IMG/VR virus record: IMGVR_UViG_3300006076_000025
Coordinates: 1-25,287 of that record
Length of the DNA stretch: 25,287 nt
Source: a virus
Strand: one strand, 5' to 3'
Shown in pieces: positions 10,981-25,287 of the stretch (position 1 is the first letter of the stretch; every line of letters begins with the position of its first letter). The notes below the pieces were generated by a model that saw only the letters and a list, made by a program, of their open reading frames with translations, did not search any database and was not told where the DNA came from. Both the position numbers and the translations under genes were made by a program.

Positions 10981-13049
10981 GTAACTCTACCATTGATATA
11001 GATTCATTACCTAATGAGTTAAATATAGATTCATTACCTGATAATTTCTCTAATGATAAGCAAACTCAACCTAATAACAGTAGTGAGACTAGAAGTAAAG
11101 TTCCTGACTTTACTTCTGCTAAAACCATTGATATAGACTCATTACCTAATGAGTTAAATATAGATTCATTACCTGATAATTTCTATGTTAATAGTAGTCC
11201 TACCAAAACTAATAACTCTTATAATATAGAGAAAATTAATACTCAAAAAGAACTAGACCGTATGGATTTATGGTTTAACACTCTTCAAAAAACTCCATAC
11301 AAAGCCTTTAGTAATTTTGGTAGATTAGTAGGAGATACTATTGGAGATGATGAAGTTAAGAATTATTGGGATAGAGAGCATAAAAAAGTCTCTAAAGATA
11401 TAGATGATAACTTAAATAAATTACATATCACTAACTCCTTACAGAGAGAAGTATTAGGTAATGCCTTTGGAATAACCGCTGGATTTTTAACTCCGTTTAA
11501 GGGTGGGCTTTTATCTGGTATAGGTAATGGATTAGTAGGTGGTGGAGCTTATGGACTTATGGTTGAACCTAATTTAAAAGAGGTAGCTAAAGATGCTGTA
11601 ATTAGTGGTGGAGCAGTTGGAACATTAACAATGTTAGCTTACCCACTTAAACAATTAAAAAAGATAATGGGAGATGGGGATTTTATCCAACTCTCAAAGT
11701 TTAAAAGTTATAAAGATTTACCTCCTGCATTTAGAGAGAAAATAGACTATGTAGCTAAAACAGGAACTTATGAACCTGAAGAGTTATTTAATAATGTTAA
11801 AAAGTATGTAGGTAGTATAGAAAGAGATGAGAATATAGTAGAGCATTTAAATCCTGCTCATTATAAAGTATTTGATAATAAAGCTACTGATACCCCTATA
11901 TCTCACGCATTATTTAGTAAAGCTTTAGCGGAGACTGGTGGAACTAATGCTCAAAATAAGTTATTACAAGCTAACAAACTTAATCCAAAAGTAGCTGGTA
12001 ACTATGCTAGAGAGGCTAAAGCTCGTTATGAAACCTTAATGAAAACTGCTCCTAAAGAGTTACAAGAGATAATAGAAGTTAATACAAAACATTATGATAA
12101 CAATATCCCTGCTGTTAATTGGAGAGATGTTTATAATGAAGCTAAGGGATTAGATTTACCTAAAGAGTATGTAGATAGATTAGAAGCCTACTCACATTTA
12201 AACGACCATTATATAGCGCCTGTGTTACAAGGTAATCTTTCATCTGATGTGCCTGAGTTTATAAAGAATGCTCTAGTTTCATCATCTGTTACTGGAACTC
12301 TAACTAGAGGGGTAATGTTAAATGTAATTAGTAGGATTAAACAACTCTATTCAATAGATGAGAGATTGATAAGAGATATAGCTCATATAGCAGAGAAAGA
12401 ACCTCTCAAACCTACTAAATTAGCTCAAATATTAGAAGAGAAAGCTAATATACCTCCTGAAGCTACTGCTAAGGTTATGGAGGAGGTTCTTAGTCCTAAT
12501 GACCACTCAATAAGTCCTAATGACCACTCAATAAGTCCTAATGACCACTCAATAAGTCCTAATGATTTAAGGACCAAAGCAGAGCAAGTTAAGAAAGAGA
12601 CTTATGACCCTAATAAAGCTAAGCAGGTTAGGAAGGGTATTAATAGAATAGGTAGTTGGGATACTCACGGCTGGAAAGATGTATTAAACGATGATACTTA
12701 CATTAGTGGTAATGATGTTTATACATTTATCCGCAGTCAATTATTAGATAATCCTGAGTTTGGTTACAAAACCAAAGCTACTCTATTAGGATTAAAAGCA
12801 AGACCTAATAAGGCTGAGAGTGTTAATAAACAAGCTGAAGAGTTTGCTAAAGCTATACTTGATAAAGCAGACGGTAATGTAGATGAAGTTGCAAGAATGT
12901 TAGGAATAGTAATGGATACCAATCCTGAAGATTTTTATAAGTTTATCATTGAGAGGGATTACCCTAAGAAACATTATTGGGGCTTATTACCTTTAACAGC
13001 TCCTGTATATACACCATTTAACACAAAGGATAATAATGGGAAACAATAG
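10977..13049 (+). CDS. Second large internal virion / ejection protein, 690 aa
   Basis: No catalytic motif is seen. The N-terminus carries a duplicated segment (residues 5-24 and 50-69) built on the short motif IDSLP, present four times. Residues about 159-196 and 204-224 are rich in Gly, Ala and hydrophobic residues (TPFKGGLLSGIGNGLVGGGA), a plausible membrane-active region like those of ejection proteins. The rest is charged helix and linker, with a Ser-Pro-Asn-Asp-His repeat at residues 506-530. It begins in an ATGA overlap with the amidase-containing gene and has GAGGAG eight bases before the ATG; the next gene starts inside its end. Being paired with the 1227-aa protein suggests the roles of T7 gp15/gp16, DNA translocation into the host, but this is inferred from position and composition. 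Confidence 0.6.
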   Translation: MSNSTIDIDSLPNELNIDSLPDNFSNDKQTQPNNSSETRSKVPDFTSAKTIDIDSLPNELNIDSLPDNFYVNSSPTKTNNSYNIEKINTQKELDRMDLWFNTLQKTPYKAFSNFGRLVGDTIGDDEVKNYWDREHKKVSKDIDDNLNKLHITNSLQREVLGNAFGITAGFLTPFKGGLLSGIGNGLVGGGAYGLMVEPNLKEVAKDAVISGGAVGTLTMLAYPLKQLKKIMGDGDFIQLSKFKSYKDLPPAFREKIDYVAKTGTYEPEELFNNVKKYVGSIERDENIVEHLNPAHYKVFDNKATDTPISHALFSKALAETGGTNAQNKLLQANKLNPKVAGNYAREAKARYETLMKTAPKELQEIIEVNTKHYDNNIPAVNWRDVYNEAKGLDLPKEYVDRLEAYSHLNDHYIAPVLQGNLSSDVPEFIKNALVSSSVTGTLTRGVMLNVISRIKQLYSIDERLIRDIAHIAEKEPLKPTKLAQILEEKANIPPEATAKVMEEVLSPNDHSISPNDHSISPNDHSISPNDLRTKAEQVKKETYDPNKAKQVRKGINRIGSWDTHGWKDVLNDDTYISGNDVYTFIRSQLLDNPEFGYKTKATLLGLKARPNKAESVNKQAEEFAKAILDKADGNVDEVARMLGIVMDTNPEDFYKFIIERDYPKKHYWGLLPLTAPVYTPFNTKDNNGKQ
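10989..11184 (+). repeat. Pair of 61-bp direct repeats (10989-11049 and 11124-11184)
   Basis: The two copies differ at one base (GAT versus GAC, both Asp) and are 135 bp apart in the same frame. Each encodes TIDIDSLPNELNIDSLPDNF, itself two versions of an IDSLP unit. Near identity at the DNA level indicates recent duplication. Confidence 0.92.
12492..12565 (+). repeat. 21-bp tandem repeat, 3.5 perfect copies
   Basis: The unit AGTCCTAATGACCACTCAAT+A repeats exactly at 12492, 12513 and 12534, with a partial copy from 12555. It encodes the heptapeptide SPNDHSI. A 16-bp match to the unit (CTAATGACCACTCAAT) is found at 8264-8279 in the previous large gene. Confidence 0.95.
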
Positions 13050-14266: not shown

Positions 14267-14541
14267 CACACTATTCCTTTAATAAAATTCTTAACATCTT
14301 TAATATCTCTTGCTACAATAGCAGAACCTTTAGCGTCTCTTATTTGGTTTAATTTAATCTTCTGTAATTCAGAAACTCTACCATATTTAGTCTTAACCTC
14401 TATGGCTACAAAATGCCCTTTTATACAAGCTAGTATATCAGGCACTCCTGCTGTGTTAGCTTTAATAACTTTAGTAGCCCACCCCTCATCTAAGGAGTTG
14501 ATATATTTAAGTATCTTAGCTTGTATATCAGCTTCTTTCAT
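14266..14541 (-). CDS. VRR-NUC domain nuclease
   Basis: The 91-residue product is a single VRR-NUC domain of the usual phage length. It shows the PD-(D/E)xK-type core: GVPDILACIKGHFVAIEVK with Asp35 and the pair E48-x-K50, followed by the conserved S-E-L-Q (57-60), and an N-terminal Glu in MKEADIQ. Enzymes of this family cut structured DNA such as junctions or flaps. It overlaps the helicase gene upstream by 14 bases and the small orphan downstream by one base. A helicase next to a VRR-NUC nuclease is a common phage pair and suggests recombination or resolution of replication intermediates. Confidence 0.85.
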   Translation of the reverse strand: MKEADIQAKILKYINSLDEGWATKVIKANTAGVPDILACIKGHFVAIEVKTKYGRVSELQKIKLNQIRDAKGSAIVARDIKDVKNFIKGIV

Positions 14542-15712
14542 TAAAATCCTTTACCCAATTATCAAAACTTCTCTTAGTAAAATTTTTATGTTTCTTAGCA
14601 ACTTGATTATATACAGCTTCACTAAGTCCTCTTTTAACTAATAAGTAATCTACTTCTATTGGTTTATCTCTTTGCTTATTAGACTGTCTAGCTCTTCTTT
14701 GAATATATTTAGATGTTGAATAACTCATTGAATAGATAATAAGTTTATCAAATTGATGTAAATCAACTCCCTCTGCATACGCATCTCCTTGTAAAATAAG
14801 AGCATTTTTGAAATGCTGTCTTAACTTCTTACCTTCATTGACAAAATGGTGCATAATGACTATCTTATCAGAATCGCCATATAACTCTTTAATTTTAGTT
14901 ATTTTCTCAATGTTGAGATATATTTTATCTTTATAAACTCCCCCCTCTCTTTGATATATAGCATTCCTTAATTTCATTGGAGAGTCTAAAGGTTCTCCGT
15001 CTAATACTAATGTCCTAAGAGCCTTTTTAATATCATCTTTGGTAGTCTTATCCATATTAACATATATTAGATTATCAGTAGGACTATATTCAAATCCTGC
15101 ATCATCTCTACTAAACCATATAAAATTAGATTTAATTTTCTCTAAAACTTTATGGTTGTGGTAGTGAGTATAATCATTAACATAACCATAAGGTATCTTT
15201 TTTACCTTACTTATACCATACACATCAAAGAATTGATAAAAGGTATTAAACTCCCAAAAAGGACTATAAGCTCCTAAGAGTTTTAGTTGTGGATATATCT
15301 GTCCTATATGCTCTGCATAAGGAGTGGCAGAGAGGTATAAGATAGGAGTGTTTTTAACTACTTTTTCTACCTCTTTATATATCACTCCTTGCTTTGGAAT
15401 GGCAGAGAGGTATGCGTGAGCTTCATCAAGTATTACCACATCAAAGGATTGTTTAATATGTTTAACTTGATGATAGTTAGTAAGAGTAACTTTATTTTTT
15501 AAGTGTGGTAAGAGATTTAAAGTCTCCATTATACCTTCTAAAGCTTTCTTTTTAGTAATAATAAGAATTTTGTTATAATCCTCCACAGCTAAAAGGGCTG
15601 TTAAGGTTTTACCTGTCCTTTCCTCCATTGCAAGATAAGCCCAAGAACTACTCCTTAACAACTCTTTAGCCTTTTTAGCTATCTCTATTTGATAAGGGTA
15701 TGGTGTAATCAT
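14528..15712 (-). CDS. Superfamily 2 DNA helicase (DEAH-box, SNF2/Type III-like)
   Basis: The 394-residue product has the SF2 motifs in order: a Q-type element (YPYQ, 5-8), Walker A in the form MEERTGKT (29-36), DEAH (96-99), SAT (128-130), AEGVDL (313-318) and the arginine motif QRRARQSNKQR (338-348). It is compact for a helicase. The Walker A is MEERTGKT rather than GxGKT with two glycines, as in SNF2-like proteins (often E-M-G-L-G-K-T). It starts in an ATGA overlap with the preceding gene and has AAGGA seven bases before the ATG. It probably remodels DNA branches together with the overlapping VRR-NUC nuclease. Confidence 0.85.
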   Translation of the reverse strand: MITPYPYQIEIAKKAKELLRSSSWAYLAMEERTGKTLTALLAVEDYNKILIITKKKALEGIMETLNLLPHLKNKVTLTNYHQVKHIKQSFDVVILDEAHAYLSAIPKQGVIYKEVEKVVKNTPILYLSATPYAEHIGQIYPQLKLLGAYSPFWEFNTFYQFFDVYGISKVKKIPYGYVNDYTHYHNHKVLEKIKSNFIWFSRDDAGFEYSPTDNLIYVNMDKTTKDDIKKALRTLVLDGEPLDSPMKLRNAIYQREGGVYKDKIYLNIEKITKIKELYGDSDKIVIMHHFVNEGKKLRQHFKNALILQGDAYAEGVDLHQFDKLIIYSMSYSTSKYIQRRARQSNKQRDKPIEVDYLLVKRGLSEAVYNQVAKKHKNFTKRSFDNWVKDFNERS

Positions 15713-17001
15713 CTCATAATCCTTAGTTTGGCATTTTCATCTTCTAAAAACTCTTTAGAATAAGGGTATAAAACTATTCCTGTCTTTTTATAAAATTTTT
15801 TAGCACTGTATAGCGATATAACTTCTAAATTTGAGTAGTATGTATTAGCTCTATAATATAAAACATCTAAAATATCAGAGATGAAAAATACATCAAAATC
15901 TCGTATTGCTATACCTATATCACTATATGGATAAATCCATACATTGTATGCTTTAACTATCCTCTTAGCTACATTATAAGAGGGTATATAGCGTCCTCTT
16001 AACCAAGTATTCAAAGTAGAAATATGAACCTTTAATATCTCAGTTATCTCTTCTTTACCATAATTATCTACTAACTCATTAATAGACACAGTAGGATAAC
16101 CATAATGTGGATTAGTAAGTTGAAAAGATTTTACTGTTATTTCATTATAAGGATATAGAATTTTACCTGTCTCTTCATATACCAATCTAGCTATTGGCAG
16201 TGGTATATAATCTACTTTATCAAAAAACTCTTCAGACATATACTTCAAAATATAAGATTTTACATCGTGTTTTGAAACCCCTTTAGTTCTATATTTACTC
16301 ATTATAGGGTATATTGAGTATTTATAGGTTTCATATATCTTAACCTTATACTCTAAAGGTAAATCCCCCATTCGTAAAAAGATACCTAACTGTCTAGTAG
16401 AAATACCTAATACTTCACTTACCCGTTTATTACCTAAGGTTCTAGTTAAAGTTTTTAACTGTTTTTTAACTTTAACTTTAGGATTATCTATTGACTTTAA
16501 GTATTTTTCAGAAAATGGGTAAAGAACTACTCCTAAAGATGTATAAAAACTTAAAGCTGTTAGTTTATCAGGTAGTTGCTTCCCTTTATGTAATTCTAGG
16601 GCATAGTTATGGCTAACATTAGCTACTAACCTAATATCTTTGGTAGAGTAGTTCTTAATATCTACTCCTTCATCACTATAAGGATAAATAAAAACTCCAA
16701 AGATACTTCTTATTCTCATTGGAATAGTATGTGTGGAGAAAAAATACTCTTTGTGGTAATAAGCAACTAAATCTGTGGTTATATAATGTTTGTAGGTATA
16801 TATATCCACTACTTTTTTAAACTCTTCAAAAGTAATATTGCGTCTTTTACCTTTAATCTTTTTTAACTCTTCTACTACAAAAGATAGTTTTGGTATATTA
16901 ACTACTTTCTCAGGTATATTAGCAACTCGTTGTTTTACAATTAGTTTTTTTGTTTGTGTATTAAATAACTCTTTAACTTTTTTTAAACTTGGATAACTCA
17001 T
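15709..17001 (-). CDS. Six-repeat HTH-like (XRE-type) protein with YPYS repeat ends; function unknown
   Basis: The 430-residue product appears to be built of six related ~50-residue units, each ending in G/Y-x-x-(L/I)-Y-P-(Y/F/I)-(S/N/M). The Y-P pairs are at residues 106, 161, 231, 283, 357 and 412. Unit five (ITEILKVHISTLNTWLRGRY then IPSYNVAKRIVKAYNV) looks like a Cro/C1-type helix-turn-helix, and unit three (VSEVLGISTRQLGIFLRMGD) does too; the others keep the L/I-P-x-x-x-A-x-x-x-Y-x-x-x-G pattern but with weaker recognition helices. The N-terminal 50 residues are basic. It lies between the exonuclease and the helicase in the replication operon, preceded by the conserved AAGGAGTGAG leader. 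DNA binding is inferred; regulation, origin recognition or packaging are all possible. Confidence 0.7.
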   Translation of the reverse strand: MSYPSLKKVKELFNTQTKKLIVKQRVANIPEKVVNIPKLSFVVEELKKIKGKRRNITFEEFKKVVDIYTYKHYITTDLVAYYHKEYFFSTHTIPMRIRSIFGVFIYPYSDEGVDIKNYSTKDIRLVANVSHNYALELHKGKQLPDKLTALSFYTSLGVVLYPFSEKYLKSIDNPKVKVKKQLKTLTRTLGNKRVSEVLGISTRQLGIFLRMGDLPLEYKVKIYETYKYSIYPIMSKYRTKGVSKHDVKSYILKYMSEEFFDKVDYIPLPIARLVYEETGKILYPYNEITVKSFQLTNPHYGYPTVSINELVDNYGKEEITEILKVHISTLNTWLRGRYIPSYNVAKRIVKAYNVWIYPYSDIGIAIRDFDVFFISDILDVLYYRANTYYSNLEVISLYSAKKFYKKTGIVLYPYSKEFLEDENAKLRIMR

Positions 17002-17026: not shown

Positions 17027-17299
17027 TTATTTAGACTCTTCAGATAATAGTTCTGCTATTAATTGACTATAACCCCCAATATCTACCCAACTATCTAAAT
17101 GATTAGGGGAGGAGGCTACTCTAGCAACTTTAGCTACTAAATCTTGAATCATAACTTCAAAATCTTCTGGTAACTCTTCTCCATTAACCTCTTTATATCT
17201 CTTACGAATAAGTTTAATTAAATTTCTCCTAAAATTCACATTACCTTTATAATCCCCATAGATTTTAGTTCTTGTTTCTAATATATTATTTAAATCCAT
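17027..17299 (-). CDS. Possible internal-start product: stand-alone DUF6378-like protein, 90 aa
   Basis: The ATG at codon 248 of the exonuclease gene is preceded by AAGGACGAGAAA, with AAGGA seven bases before it. Translation from there would give exactly the DUF6378-like domain (residues MDLNNILETRTKIYGDY onward), the size of stand-alone family members. Whether the phage makes this shorter protein besides the fusion cannot be decided from sequence alone. The domain is often found as an independent small phage protein of unknown function. Confidence 0.45.
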   Translation of the reverse strand: MDLNNILETRTKIYGDYKGNVNFRRNLIKLIRKRYKEVNGEELPEDFEVMIQDLVAKVARVASSPNHLDSWVDIGGYSQLIAELLSEESK

Positions 17300-18040
17300 T
17301 TTCTCGTCCTTAATATTTTGTATTGGTGGTTGCCACAATTTGATAGAACCATCTAATTGTAACTGGTGCATATTAACTAACCGCATAGTAAGTAAAGCGT
17401 CCTCTTCAGTCAATTTAGCTTTTTTATAAGCTTCTACAACCCTCTTCCACATCTCTACCTCATCTGTAACTCCTTGTAAAAGTTTGTTAGCTTTAACTTT
17501 CCCTATATAAGGGCAACCTTTAATATTATCAGCTTTATCCCCTATTAATGTTTGATAATAAGGATATTTAAGAGCTTCTATTTGAGTAATTTCTACAAAT
17601 CTTGGATTATTATGATAATAGTTATAATGCTTACCTGCTACATTATTTAATACATCTTTATCAATAGCACATAGTAAGTATTTATTTGGATATAAAGATT
17701 TAAGTAACACTACTTTATCATCTGCCTCGTAACCTTCACAAATCTCTCCGTCAAAATTCTTATTCAATAACTCTTTAAGCTCTTTAAGTTTTGCTGGATA
17801 ACGGAGGTTTTGCCTATTAGCCTTGTAGGTAGAAGTTAGCTCGTGTCTAAAAGTTGAGCCAGATGAGAAATATAATTCCACATCTTCAACTCCTGTATCT
17901 CTTACAATATGATTTAACCTATCTACTGCTGTTTGATAAGCTAACTCTAAATCTAAGTCAAATACTCCTTCTGATACTTCATACTCTAACTGTTGCGCTG
18001 TTATATAGGCTATTGTATCTGCATCTATTAATCCAATCAT
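17027..18040 (-). CDS. 5'-3' exonuclease (T7 gp6 / FEN family) fused to a DUF6378-like domain
   Basis: Residues 1 to about 235 are a FEN-type exonuclease: IDAD (D6, D8), the Y-K-A-N-R element at 72-76, EADDKV (E105, D107, D108), IDKDVLNN (D127, D129), and the helix-hairpin-helix region LIGDKADNIKGCPYIGKVKA (D168, D171). Such enzymes degrade host DNA and remove RNA primers. Residues 248-337 are a second complete domain: R-T-K-I-Y-G-D-Y followed by D-L-V-A-K-V-A-R-V and N-H-L-D-S-W-V-D-I-G-G-Y, which is the pattern I know from the small stand-alone phage family DUF6378. The start is in an ATGA overlap with the preceding gene with AAAGGA six bases upstream. At the junction is an internal ATG with its own ribosome binding site, described separately. 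Confidence 0.85.
   Translation of the reverse strand: MIGLIDADTIAYITAQQLEYEVSEGVFDLDLELAYQTAVDRLNHIVRDTGVEDVELYFSSGSTFRHELTSTYKANRQNLRYPAKLKELKELLNKNFDGEICEGYEADDKVVLLKSLYPNKYLLCAIDKDVLNNVAGKHYNYYHNNPRFVEITQIEALKYPYYQTLIGDKADNIKGCPYIGKVKANKLLQGVTDEVEMWKRVVEAYKKAKLTEEDALLTMRLVNMHQLQLDGSIKLWQPPIQNIKDEKMDLNNILETRTKIYGDYKGNVNFRRNLIKLIRKRYKEVNGEELPEDFEVMIQDLVAKVARVASSPNHLDSWVDIGGYSQLIAELLSEESK
17303..17311 (-). promoter_or_regulatory. Internal ribosome binding site, near copy of the early leader
   Basis: AAGGACGAG followed by AAA and ATG. Compare AAGGAGTGAG-AAA-ATG in front of the 160-aa gene: the two differ by one deletion and one substitution. It sits in the coding sequence of the exonuclease fusion at the domain boundary. 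Confidence 0.55.
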
Positions 18041-20936: not shown

Positions 20937-20938
20937 AA

Positions 20939-20948
20939 CTCACTCCTT
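20939..20948 (-). promoter_or_regulatory. Conserved early leader / ribosome binding site (ssDNA-binding protein gene)
   Basis: AAGGAGTGAG, ending two bases before the ATG at 20936. Confidence 0.8.
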
Positions 20949-20960
20949 GTTAATAAATTG

Positions 20961-20984
20961 TAGAGGTTACCTTGATAACCTCTA
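20961..20984 (-). promoter_or_regulatory. Hairpin in the leader of the ssDNA-binding protein gene
   Basis: A 9-bp stem (TAGAGGTTA with TAACCTCTA) and six-base loop lies about 12 bases upstream of the leader. It could stabilise or be processed at the 5' end of the mRNA; no U tract follows, so a terminator is less likely. Confidence 0.5.
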
Positions 20985-20996
20985 TCAGTTATTAAC

Positions 20997-21038
20997 AATA
21001 TTATCTGTAGGGGATTATAAACTCCTACAGATAATATT
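20997..21038 (-). terminator. 17-bp stem-loop between 160-aa gene and ssDNA-binding protein gene
   Basis: A perfect 15-bp stem (AATATTATCTGTAGG with its reverse complement), extended by one G-U and one G-C pair to an eight-base loop. It begins six bases after the stop of the 160-aa gene. On the - strand it is followed by GTTAATAACTG, a poor U tract, so attenuator or RNase III-type processing hairpin are alternatives to a terminator. Confidence 0.5.
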
Positions 21039-21043
21039 AATTA

Positions 21044-24134: not shown

Positions 24135-24144
24135 CTCACTCCTT
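24135..24144 (-). promoter_or_regulatory. Conserved early leader / ribosome binding site (primase-helicase gene); fixes the start
   Basis: AAGGAGTGAG, ending one base before the ATG at 24133. The alternative GTG start is contained in this motif and would have no spacing from the AAGGA. Confidence 0.8.
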
Positions 24145-24159
24145 AGTGTAATTAATTAA

Positions 24160-24185
24160 TAACAATATATAATAATCTATTGTTA
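24160..24185 (-). promoter_or_regulatory. Hairpin near the expected 5' end of the early transcript
   Basis: An 8-bp inverted repeat (TAACAATA and TATTGTTA) with a ten-base loop lies between the candidate -10 box and the primase-helicase leader. It would fold almost at the mRNA 5' end and could stabilise it. Confidence 0.4.
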
Positions 24186-24193
24186 CAGGTAGT

Positions 24194-24199
24194 ATTATA
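24194..24199 (-). promoter_or_regulatory. Candidate -10 box of the early promoter (TATAAT)
   Basis: An exact TATAAT on the - strand about 60 bases upstream of the first early gene. No good TTGACA lies 16-18 bases upstream (GACTTT / AGACTT). In such AT-rich DNA the hexamer is weak evidence by itself; position upstream of the operon is the main support. Confidence 0.35.
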
Positions 24200-24299
24200 A
24201 CGATATATATCTTAAAAAGTCTTTAATTAATAAAGTGATAAAAGTAAATAAAGTAGTTACTTAAGTGTTTTTTAAGTTTAAAATATCTTTTTTATAAAA

Positions 24300-24446
24300 G
24301 TTAATAGAATTGTTACTAAAAAGGGGGGTAGTTTTTAGATAGAAAAACATAGATTTGGGTAGTTAATAGGGTAGTAAAAGTTAATAACGACCCCCCTTGT
24401 TAAAAATAATAAAATAACCCTAACAAATCCCATTTTATGGTTAATA
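24300..24446 (+). repeat. Four GTTAATA words (24300, 24362, 24380, 24440)
   Basis: Same-strand copies at intervals of 62, 18 and 60 bases; three are GTTAATAG. They are interleaved with GGGTAGT words (about 24326, 24357 and 24369). Could be protein-binding sites; A/T-rich composition makes chance partly possible. Confidence 0.4.
24321..24398. repeat. Inverted repeat of G6 and C6 tracts
   Basis: AAGGGGGGT (24321-24329) and its exact reverse complement (24390-24398), with three more pairs after one mismatch, enclosing 60 bases. Six-base G and C runs are striking in this AT-rich DNA. Confidence 0.6.
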
Positions 24447-24549
24447 GAGATAGAGAAGGAGGGTTAAAATAATAAAAATAGGTAGAAATATGTGGAAAGT
24501 CTAGTTGTTAATTTTTTATTAATAAAATAAAAATTACCCATTTTATGGG
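24429..24549. repeat. Two CCCATTTTATGG boxes (24429-24440 and 24537-24549)
   Basis: The second box is CCCATTTTATGGG, a 5-bp inverted repeat around TTT; the first lacks the last G. Candidate operator-like or origin sites. Confidence 0.45.
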
Positions 24550-24614
24550 AGTTAAGTATAAATTTTTAAGGTAATTTAACTACAATCTAAATTAGGATTA
24601 TAATAAACACTTAC

Positions 24615-24640
24615 ATATATATATATATATATATATATAT
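24615..24640. repeat. (AT)13 tract
   Basis: Uninterrupted alternating AT, likely easily melted or cruciform-forming. Confidence 0.95.
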
Positions 24641-24839
24641 GCAGGGATTTAAATTTTAATTCAGGAAAAATACTACTTAAAGTTTTCTTATGTGGGGAGA
24701 TTTCTACCCTATTCCTTACCTTACTTTATACCCTAAATTATAAATATTACCCTATATTAATATTAAAGATTTCTTAAATATTAATATAACCTCTATATTA
24801 AATAAATGTTAGGGGTGGAGGTTACTTTTTATTTTATTC

Positions 24840-24878
24840 TTTTAGATATGAATTTAGGATATATTTTAATATCTAAAA
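24840..24878. repeat. 10-bp inverted repeat TTTTAGATAT / ATATCTAAAA
   Basis: Perfect arms separated by 19 bases, immediately left of a second alternating tract, (AT)9 at 24883-24900. Confidence 0.6.
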
Positions 24879-24936
24879 TAAGATATATATATATATATAT
24901 TATATTAAGAAAAATAATATAAAAAGAGAATAATAA

Positions 24937-24948
24937 ACACGCGCGTGT
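24937..24948. repeat. 12-bp palindrome ACACGCGCGTGT
   Basis: Perfectly self-complementary and alternating purine-pyrimidine, the most GC-rich dozen bases of the surrounding region. Candidate protein-binding site or Z-DNA-prone element. Confidence 0.7.
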
Positions 24949-25193
24949 ATATCATATATAGAGGAATTTTAGAGTAACTCCACTAATTTAGAAATTTACT
25001 AAGTTTCAGTTTTTAAACTTATTTATGAAGACTAGTATGGATTAGTATGGACTACTACTACTACATCTAAAACCTTATTTGTGGCTAGAAGTTACAGAAA
25101 TAGCTCTTAAATCGATTTTAACTACTTAAAGCAGTAATGATATTACCTAAACCTACTTTTTAGCTTTAAAGGGTATTTCTGTGTTTTTTAAAG

Positions 25194-25287
25194 GGTATAT
25201 AGAATTTCTAGGAAACTGGTATATAGAATTTCTAGGAAACTGGTATATAGAATTTCTAGGAAACTGGTATATAGAATTTCTAGGAAA
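25194..25287 (+). repeat. 24-bp tandem repeat, three full copies plus 22 bases, cut by window edge
   Basis: Copies start at 25194, 25218, 25242 and 25266 and are identical: GGTATATAGAATTTCTAGGA+AACT. Each holds nested short inverted repeats (AGAA-T-TTCT and TTTC-TAG-GAAA). There are no spacers. The array may continue beyond the window. Such iterons occur at replication origins and next to terminal repeats of T7-like genomes. Confidence 0.95.

Follow-up and report, generated by a model that had tools for sequence, protein, structure and literature searches.

We find that a 430-residue protein encoded in the replication operon of a podovirus is built mainly from six tandem units related to the XRE-type helix-turn-helix (HTH), and that these units are organized as three copies of a two-unit module. 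The DNA analyzed here, hereafter the window, comprises the 25,287 bases of a virus record. The array protein corresponds to an open reading frame at positions 15709–17001 on the minus strand, with an ATG start codon and a AAGGAGTG ribosome-binding site; its assignment draws on the reading frame itself, self-alignment, BLASTP of its thirds and a profile of single HTHs. The array gene lies immediately upstream of an SF2 helicase gene (14528–15712, minus strand), which is the syntenic anchor of this slot, and the TGA stop codon of the former overlaps the ATG of the latter as ATGA. The initial annotation had placed the protein in a replication operon, and this placement is borne out.

Self-alignment of the array protein, a check that the initial annotation had proposed, detects significant internal similarity, with a score of 159 as against 47±10 and a maximum of 73 in 60 composition-preserving shuffles. 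BLASTP between the thirds of the array returns E-values of 2e-14 (N-terminal vs C-terminal), 3e-11 (middle vs C-terminal) and 5e-5 (N-terminal vs middle). Six unit ends of the form (L/I)YP(Y/F/I) place their tyrosines at residues 106, 161, 231, 283, 357 and 412, exactly as listed earlier. The dominant internal lag, the strongest by far, is 251 residues or twice 125.5, and the true period is therefore a two-unit A+B module of ~125 residues, present three times. Unit-to-unit scores bring units 2, 4 and 6 together and group units 1, 3 and 5 more loosely, with pairwise z-scores of 10.9 (units 2 and 6), 9.5 (units 4 and 6), 8.8 (units 1 and 5) and 5.9 (units 3 and 5). Read from the sequence, the architecture is a basic 52-residue N-terminus followed by three tandem A+B modules, a period that the initial annotation had missed.

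The N-terminal extension (residues 1–52; 16846–17001) lies outside the repeats and carries a net charge of +9. It is followed, again on the minus strand throughout, by unit 1, an A type with a degenerate HTH (residues 53–111; 16669–16845), and unit 2, a B type (residues 112–170; 16492–16668), both defined by unit comparison and profile. The second module comprises unit 3, an XRE-like A type with a net charge of +8 (residues 178–237; 16291–16470; comparison, profile and charge), and unit 4, a degenerate B type (residues 238–292; 16126–16290; unit comparison and profile). The third comprises unit 5, an A type with a canonical XRE HTH (residues 305–362; 15916–16089), which is recognized by Pfam, phmmer, profile and model, and unit 6, a B type (residues 363–420; 15742–15915; unit comparison, model and profile).

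The kinship of these units to HTHs was assessed with a profile that draws on 12 single-HTH proteins, all from other phages and none from the window, which makes the test non-circular. With this profile the array scores 87.7 bits and resolves into exactly six domains, whereas none of the 1,001 controls, comprising 1,000 shuffles plus the reversed sequence, exceeds 7.4 bits, and in the per-unit search every unit cut out alone scores above all 2,000 shuffled units. The profile covers the HTH itself in unit 3 and in unit 5, the latter showing the best preservation of all. In units 1, 2 and 4 the alignment lies largely in the C-terminal helix and the YPY segment, and in unit 6 in the C-terminal half; in these four units the match spans profile positions ~27–71, mostly 40–71, and the recognition-helix regions are poor, so that these units may not touch DNA. 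The alignments thus agree with the initial annotation, which had called units 3 and 5 XRE-like and the others degenerate. Pfam sees unit 5 alone, as HTH_3 (PF01381, E=3.4e-4), just under the curated cut-off of 23 bits (21.0 bits for the whole protein, 22.7 bits for unit 5 by itself).

The composition of the protein is biased, with 42 tyrosines among 430 residues, and the repeats might in principle be a chance pattern of a Tyr/Lys-rich protein encoded by AT-biased DNA. Shuffles that preserve the composition, however, all fall far short of the array in both self-similarity and profile score; these tests refute a chance origin, to which we assign practically no probability.

A structural model of the last A+B module (residues 301–430), computed from six aligned sequences, has a mean pLDDT of 74. 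Unit 5 is modeled with a pLDDT of 77–94 over most of its length and consists of four helices with short flanking strands, the YPY motif following directly after the last strand. Unit 6, the B unit, is modeled less surely (pLDDT about 53–79), and the pTM of the A+B pair is 0.49. Foldseek returns the XRE repressors DdrO, CylR2, SinR and HigA, the first three matching unit 5 with an rmsd of 1.5–2.0 Å over ~50 residues; the PDB E-values all exceed 0.1, as is expected for so small a fold. Unit 5 is accordingly predicted to be an ordinary XRE fold of four helices, and it is for this unit only, among the six, that the models give such a fold. A full-length AlphaFold model of the array from the single sequence (pLDDT 34) is uninformative. 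The XRE structures of DdrO, CylR2, SinR and HipB resemble unit 5 in fold, but these proteins carry one HTH per chain and act as homodimers, whereas the array carries six.

The podovirus from which the window derives is a relative of Edwardsiella phage KF-1. Its portal (41–45% identity), DNA polymerase and VRR-NUC proteins match those of KF-1-like podoviruses, namely Edwardsiella KF-1, Vibrio VPMS1, Dickeya Amaethon, Pseudoalteromonas PH1 and Manatee Spring contigs. The matched genomes measure 40–43 kb, and the window is therefore incomplete; no terminase or capsid gene is recognized within its 25,287 bases. The helicase gene of VPMS1 is directly preceded by that of a 61-residue XRE HTH, and the two overlap as ATGA just as in the window; Amaethon and ctXG1253 carry comparable small HTHs upstream of the helicase. 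An alignment of the helicase retrieved 80 further viral contigs. Among the 81 dereplicated contigs, window included, an HTH of this family occupies the slot itself in 24, lies within 700 bases upstream but outside the slot in 8, is found elsewhere in the fetched stretch in 12 and is not detected in the fetched stretch of 35 in which the helicase is present, while 2 are truncated; the counts vary with the profile threshold and with the flanks fetched. The slot HTHs of the sister phages are single XRE/Cro-type domains of ~60–85 residues, often with overlapping stop and start codons at the helicase junction.

Such a conserved position, together with the frequent overlap that recurs as ATGA in the window, would suit an HTH protein that is produced along with the SF2 helicase as its DNA-targeting or regulatory partner and brings it to phage DNA, with the array as a multivalent loading platform, and the YPY/PF tail is indeed kept in units whose recognition helices have diverged. 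We consider this helicase partnership unlikely, if plausible. Gene overlaps are common in phages, 35 of the 81 contigs possess the helicase with no detectable family HTH, and 12 have the HTH elsewhere. A second group of single HTHs, which ends in (L/V)(F/H)P(F/Y)(G/A/S)E, is encoded elsewhere in the operon, so the link to the helicase is not obligatory. The proteins of L053, L021, L029 and L097–L103 belong to the array's family by profile, share a hydrophobic-(Y/F/H)-P-(Y/F) ending and lie in the same operon; unlike the array, they possess one domain each and are encoded further upstream, between nucleotide-metabolism genes.

The nearest single HTHs are two that occupy the slot, on contigs L022 and L008, and one that is encoded a gene further upstream, on contig L041, with phmmer E-values against the array of 4e-7, 2.6e-4 and 6.5e-7, respectively. 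All three end in IV(V/I)YPY, or more fully IVxYPY(S/A), and resemble unit 5 most, with z-scores against that unit of up to 17.7, as compared with 2.1–3.3 for the ordinary slot HTHs of VPMS1 and L025. Only the YPY/PF subgroup matches the array well; the commoner slot HTHs that end in 'VTDA' match weakly. The single-HTH relatives match phage transcription-regulator families, phrog_4779 and phrog_6831 among them. In operon place and fold, the single HTHs of VPMS1 (MS_031), L008, L022 and L041 are like the array, which shares with the slot family both homology and the ATGA-overlapped location upstream of the helicase; the array differs in possessing six domains in 430 residues instead of one HTH in about 60–85.

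The shared slot, the IVxYPY ending and the likeness to unit 5 indicate that the array is best read as the in-place expansion of a small gene. Sequence comparison supports a course in which one small XRE/Cro-type HTH of the operon would first have doubled to give an A+B pair, whose triplication would then have yielded six units, the single HTHs of sister phages being the likely ancestral states. Intermediates of two to five units were not found in ~100 fetched loci. HTH proteins of 122–137 residues (L010, L026, L060, L072 and L076) were considered as intermediates and rejected, each consisting of one HTH joined to a different C-terminal part.

The expanded slot HTH is most likely a single-chain, multivalent DNA binder that controls the replication operon, a reading to which we give about half of our confidence. 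In this mechanism the A units, and units 3 and 5 in particular, would read or grip DNA, and the degenerate B units would act as built-in partners that replace dimerization and space the A units. Multivalency would confer high-avidity binding to clustered or distant sites on phage DNA, and binding of the array would in turn control the operon. XRE-fold regulators usually gain reach by dimerizing, and one phage lineage appears to do so covalently; the array would offer a natural parallel to engineered repeat DNA-binding proteins. What is gained by multiplying a DNA-reading domain, and whether decayed copies still touch DNA, become testable questions.

The array may perhaps be partly a scaffold, given that chiefly the C-terminal helix and the YPY segment survive in its degenerate units. 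The stronger proposal, that the HTH folds have been co-opted wholly as protein–protein modules that hold replication or host proteins and read no DNA, would fit the match of units 1, 2, 4 and 6 to the family mainly in their C-terminal halves, the very high Tyr/Phe content (42 Tyr) and the acidity of the closest single-HTH proteins (pI 4.75 for L022 and 4.45 for L041), which is unusual for a plain DNA binder. Against it, HTH-like recognition regions persist in units 3 and 5 and the full protein is strongly basic (pI 9.55, net +25), and we judge a pure scaffold to be improbable.

A candidate target for a DNA-binding array is a 24-bp perfect tandem repeat, GGTATATAGAATTTCTAGGAAACT, found by repeat search in 3.9 copies at 25194–25287 (no strand assigned), where it runs off the contig end. 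With its inner TTTC-TAG-GAAA dyad and its position about 1 kb upstream of the primase, and given a chain that appears to carry several DNA-binding modules, the repeat suggests that three A+B modules could sit on consecutive 24-bp units, or on other sites in the non-coding DNA at 24.1–25.3 kb, and organize an origin. We regard such origin or iteron binding as rather unlikely: the contig of L022 lacks a comparable repeat array, that of L008 has an unrelated 39-bp one, and the window, where the repeat is cut by the contig end, has no further occurrence of the motif. Nor do the other viral contigs searched contain the 24-bp repeat. Wrapping of the protein along DNA, which the initial annotation had also suggested, is a conceivable role as well. 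A more elaborate version, to which we accord only a small probability, casts the protein as a single-chain DNA organizer with six HTHs, in which three A–B pseudodimers would track a tandem iteron array, replace a homodimeric regulator and structure the phage origin.

The initial annotation went too far in limiting known phage regulators to one or two HTHs, for relatives of this phage encode phrog_26674 proteins with about 4–5 predicted HTHs. Members are KF-1 gp18, Dickeya phage Amaethon AWD90265.1 and VPMS1 MS_046, encoded upstream of the primase in cultured relatives. Five HTHs can be discerned by eye in AWD90265.1, for which pairwise support between segments is weak (z up to 4.7), and a profile of the Amaethon segments scores KF-1 gp18 at 41.6 bits, as against 5.9 for controls. 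Like the array, phrog_26674 proteins combine several HTHs per chain and are encoded in the replication regions of related phages; in contrast to it, their 4–5 units, as counted by eye, are homeodomain/resolvase-like HTHs of ~40 residues that lack YPY ends. The array has no match to phrog_26674, and the three members used as queries find no array. The phrog_26674 loci at L004:8087–8740, L006:5554–6255 and L007:3398–3946 represent an independent multi-HTH case of unknown function. Multi-HTH proteins are thus already known; the novelty of the present case lies in six XRE-type units in one chain that appear to stem from a small operon HTH.

A second array was not found by array 8-mers in viral_contigs and genome_contigs, by tblastn in phages and plasmids, by profiles A2, A3 and A7 in viral_contigs, or in 397 genomes from the phylum of one Campylobacterota MAG, although the collections searched may omit records very near the window and absence from them is not proof of uniqueness. 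One phage tblastn match (E=0.3) is a 67-residue single HTH beside a cI-like repressor and not an array. Three Campylobacterota matches (E~1e-3) were judged to be chance, two containing in-frame stops and the third being an open frame at a locus with nothing array-like. Matches to defence (PADLOC) and NCBIfam models are negligible, and nothing relevant on tandem-HTH arrays in phages was found in the literature.

Several other elements were observed. The 1.1 kb upstream of the primase (24140–25287) is AT-rich and apparently non-coding, and relatives have many small early genes there. The contig of L008 carries its 39-bp tandem repeat in 3.3 copies just after a 526-residue ORF (L113:1629–1755), comparable in place to the 24-bp repeat of the window. 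A 107-nt leader of the gp2.5-like SSB gene (20937–21043, minus strand) forms a pair of long neighboring hairpins (-37.9 kcal/mol, z = -7.7); it has no Rfam match and is likely a regulatory or processing element. A 21-bp perfect repeat at 12492–12565, within a 690-residue ORF, encodes PNDHSIS repeats. Finally, the 5'-3' exonuclease at 17027–18040 has a C-terminal DUF6378-like domain (PF19905, 27.6 bits, cut-off 27.1), a possible fusion.
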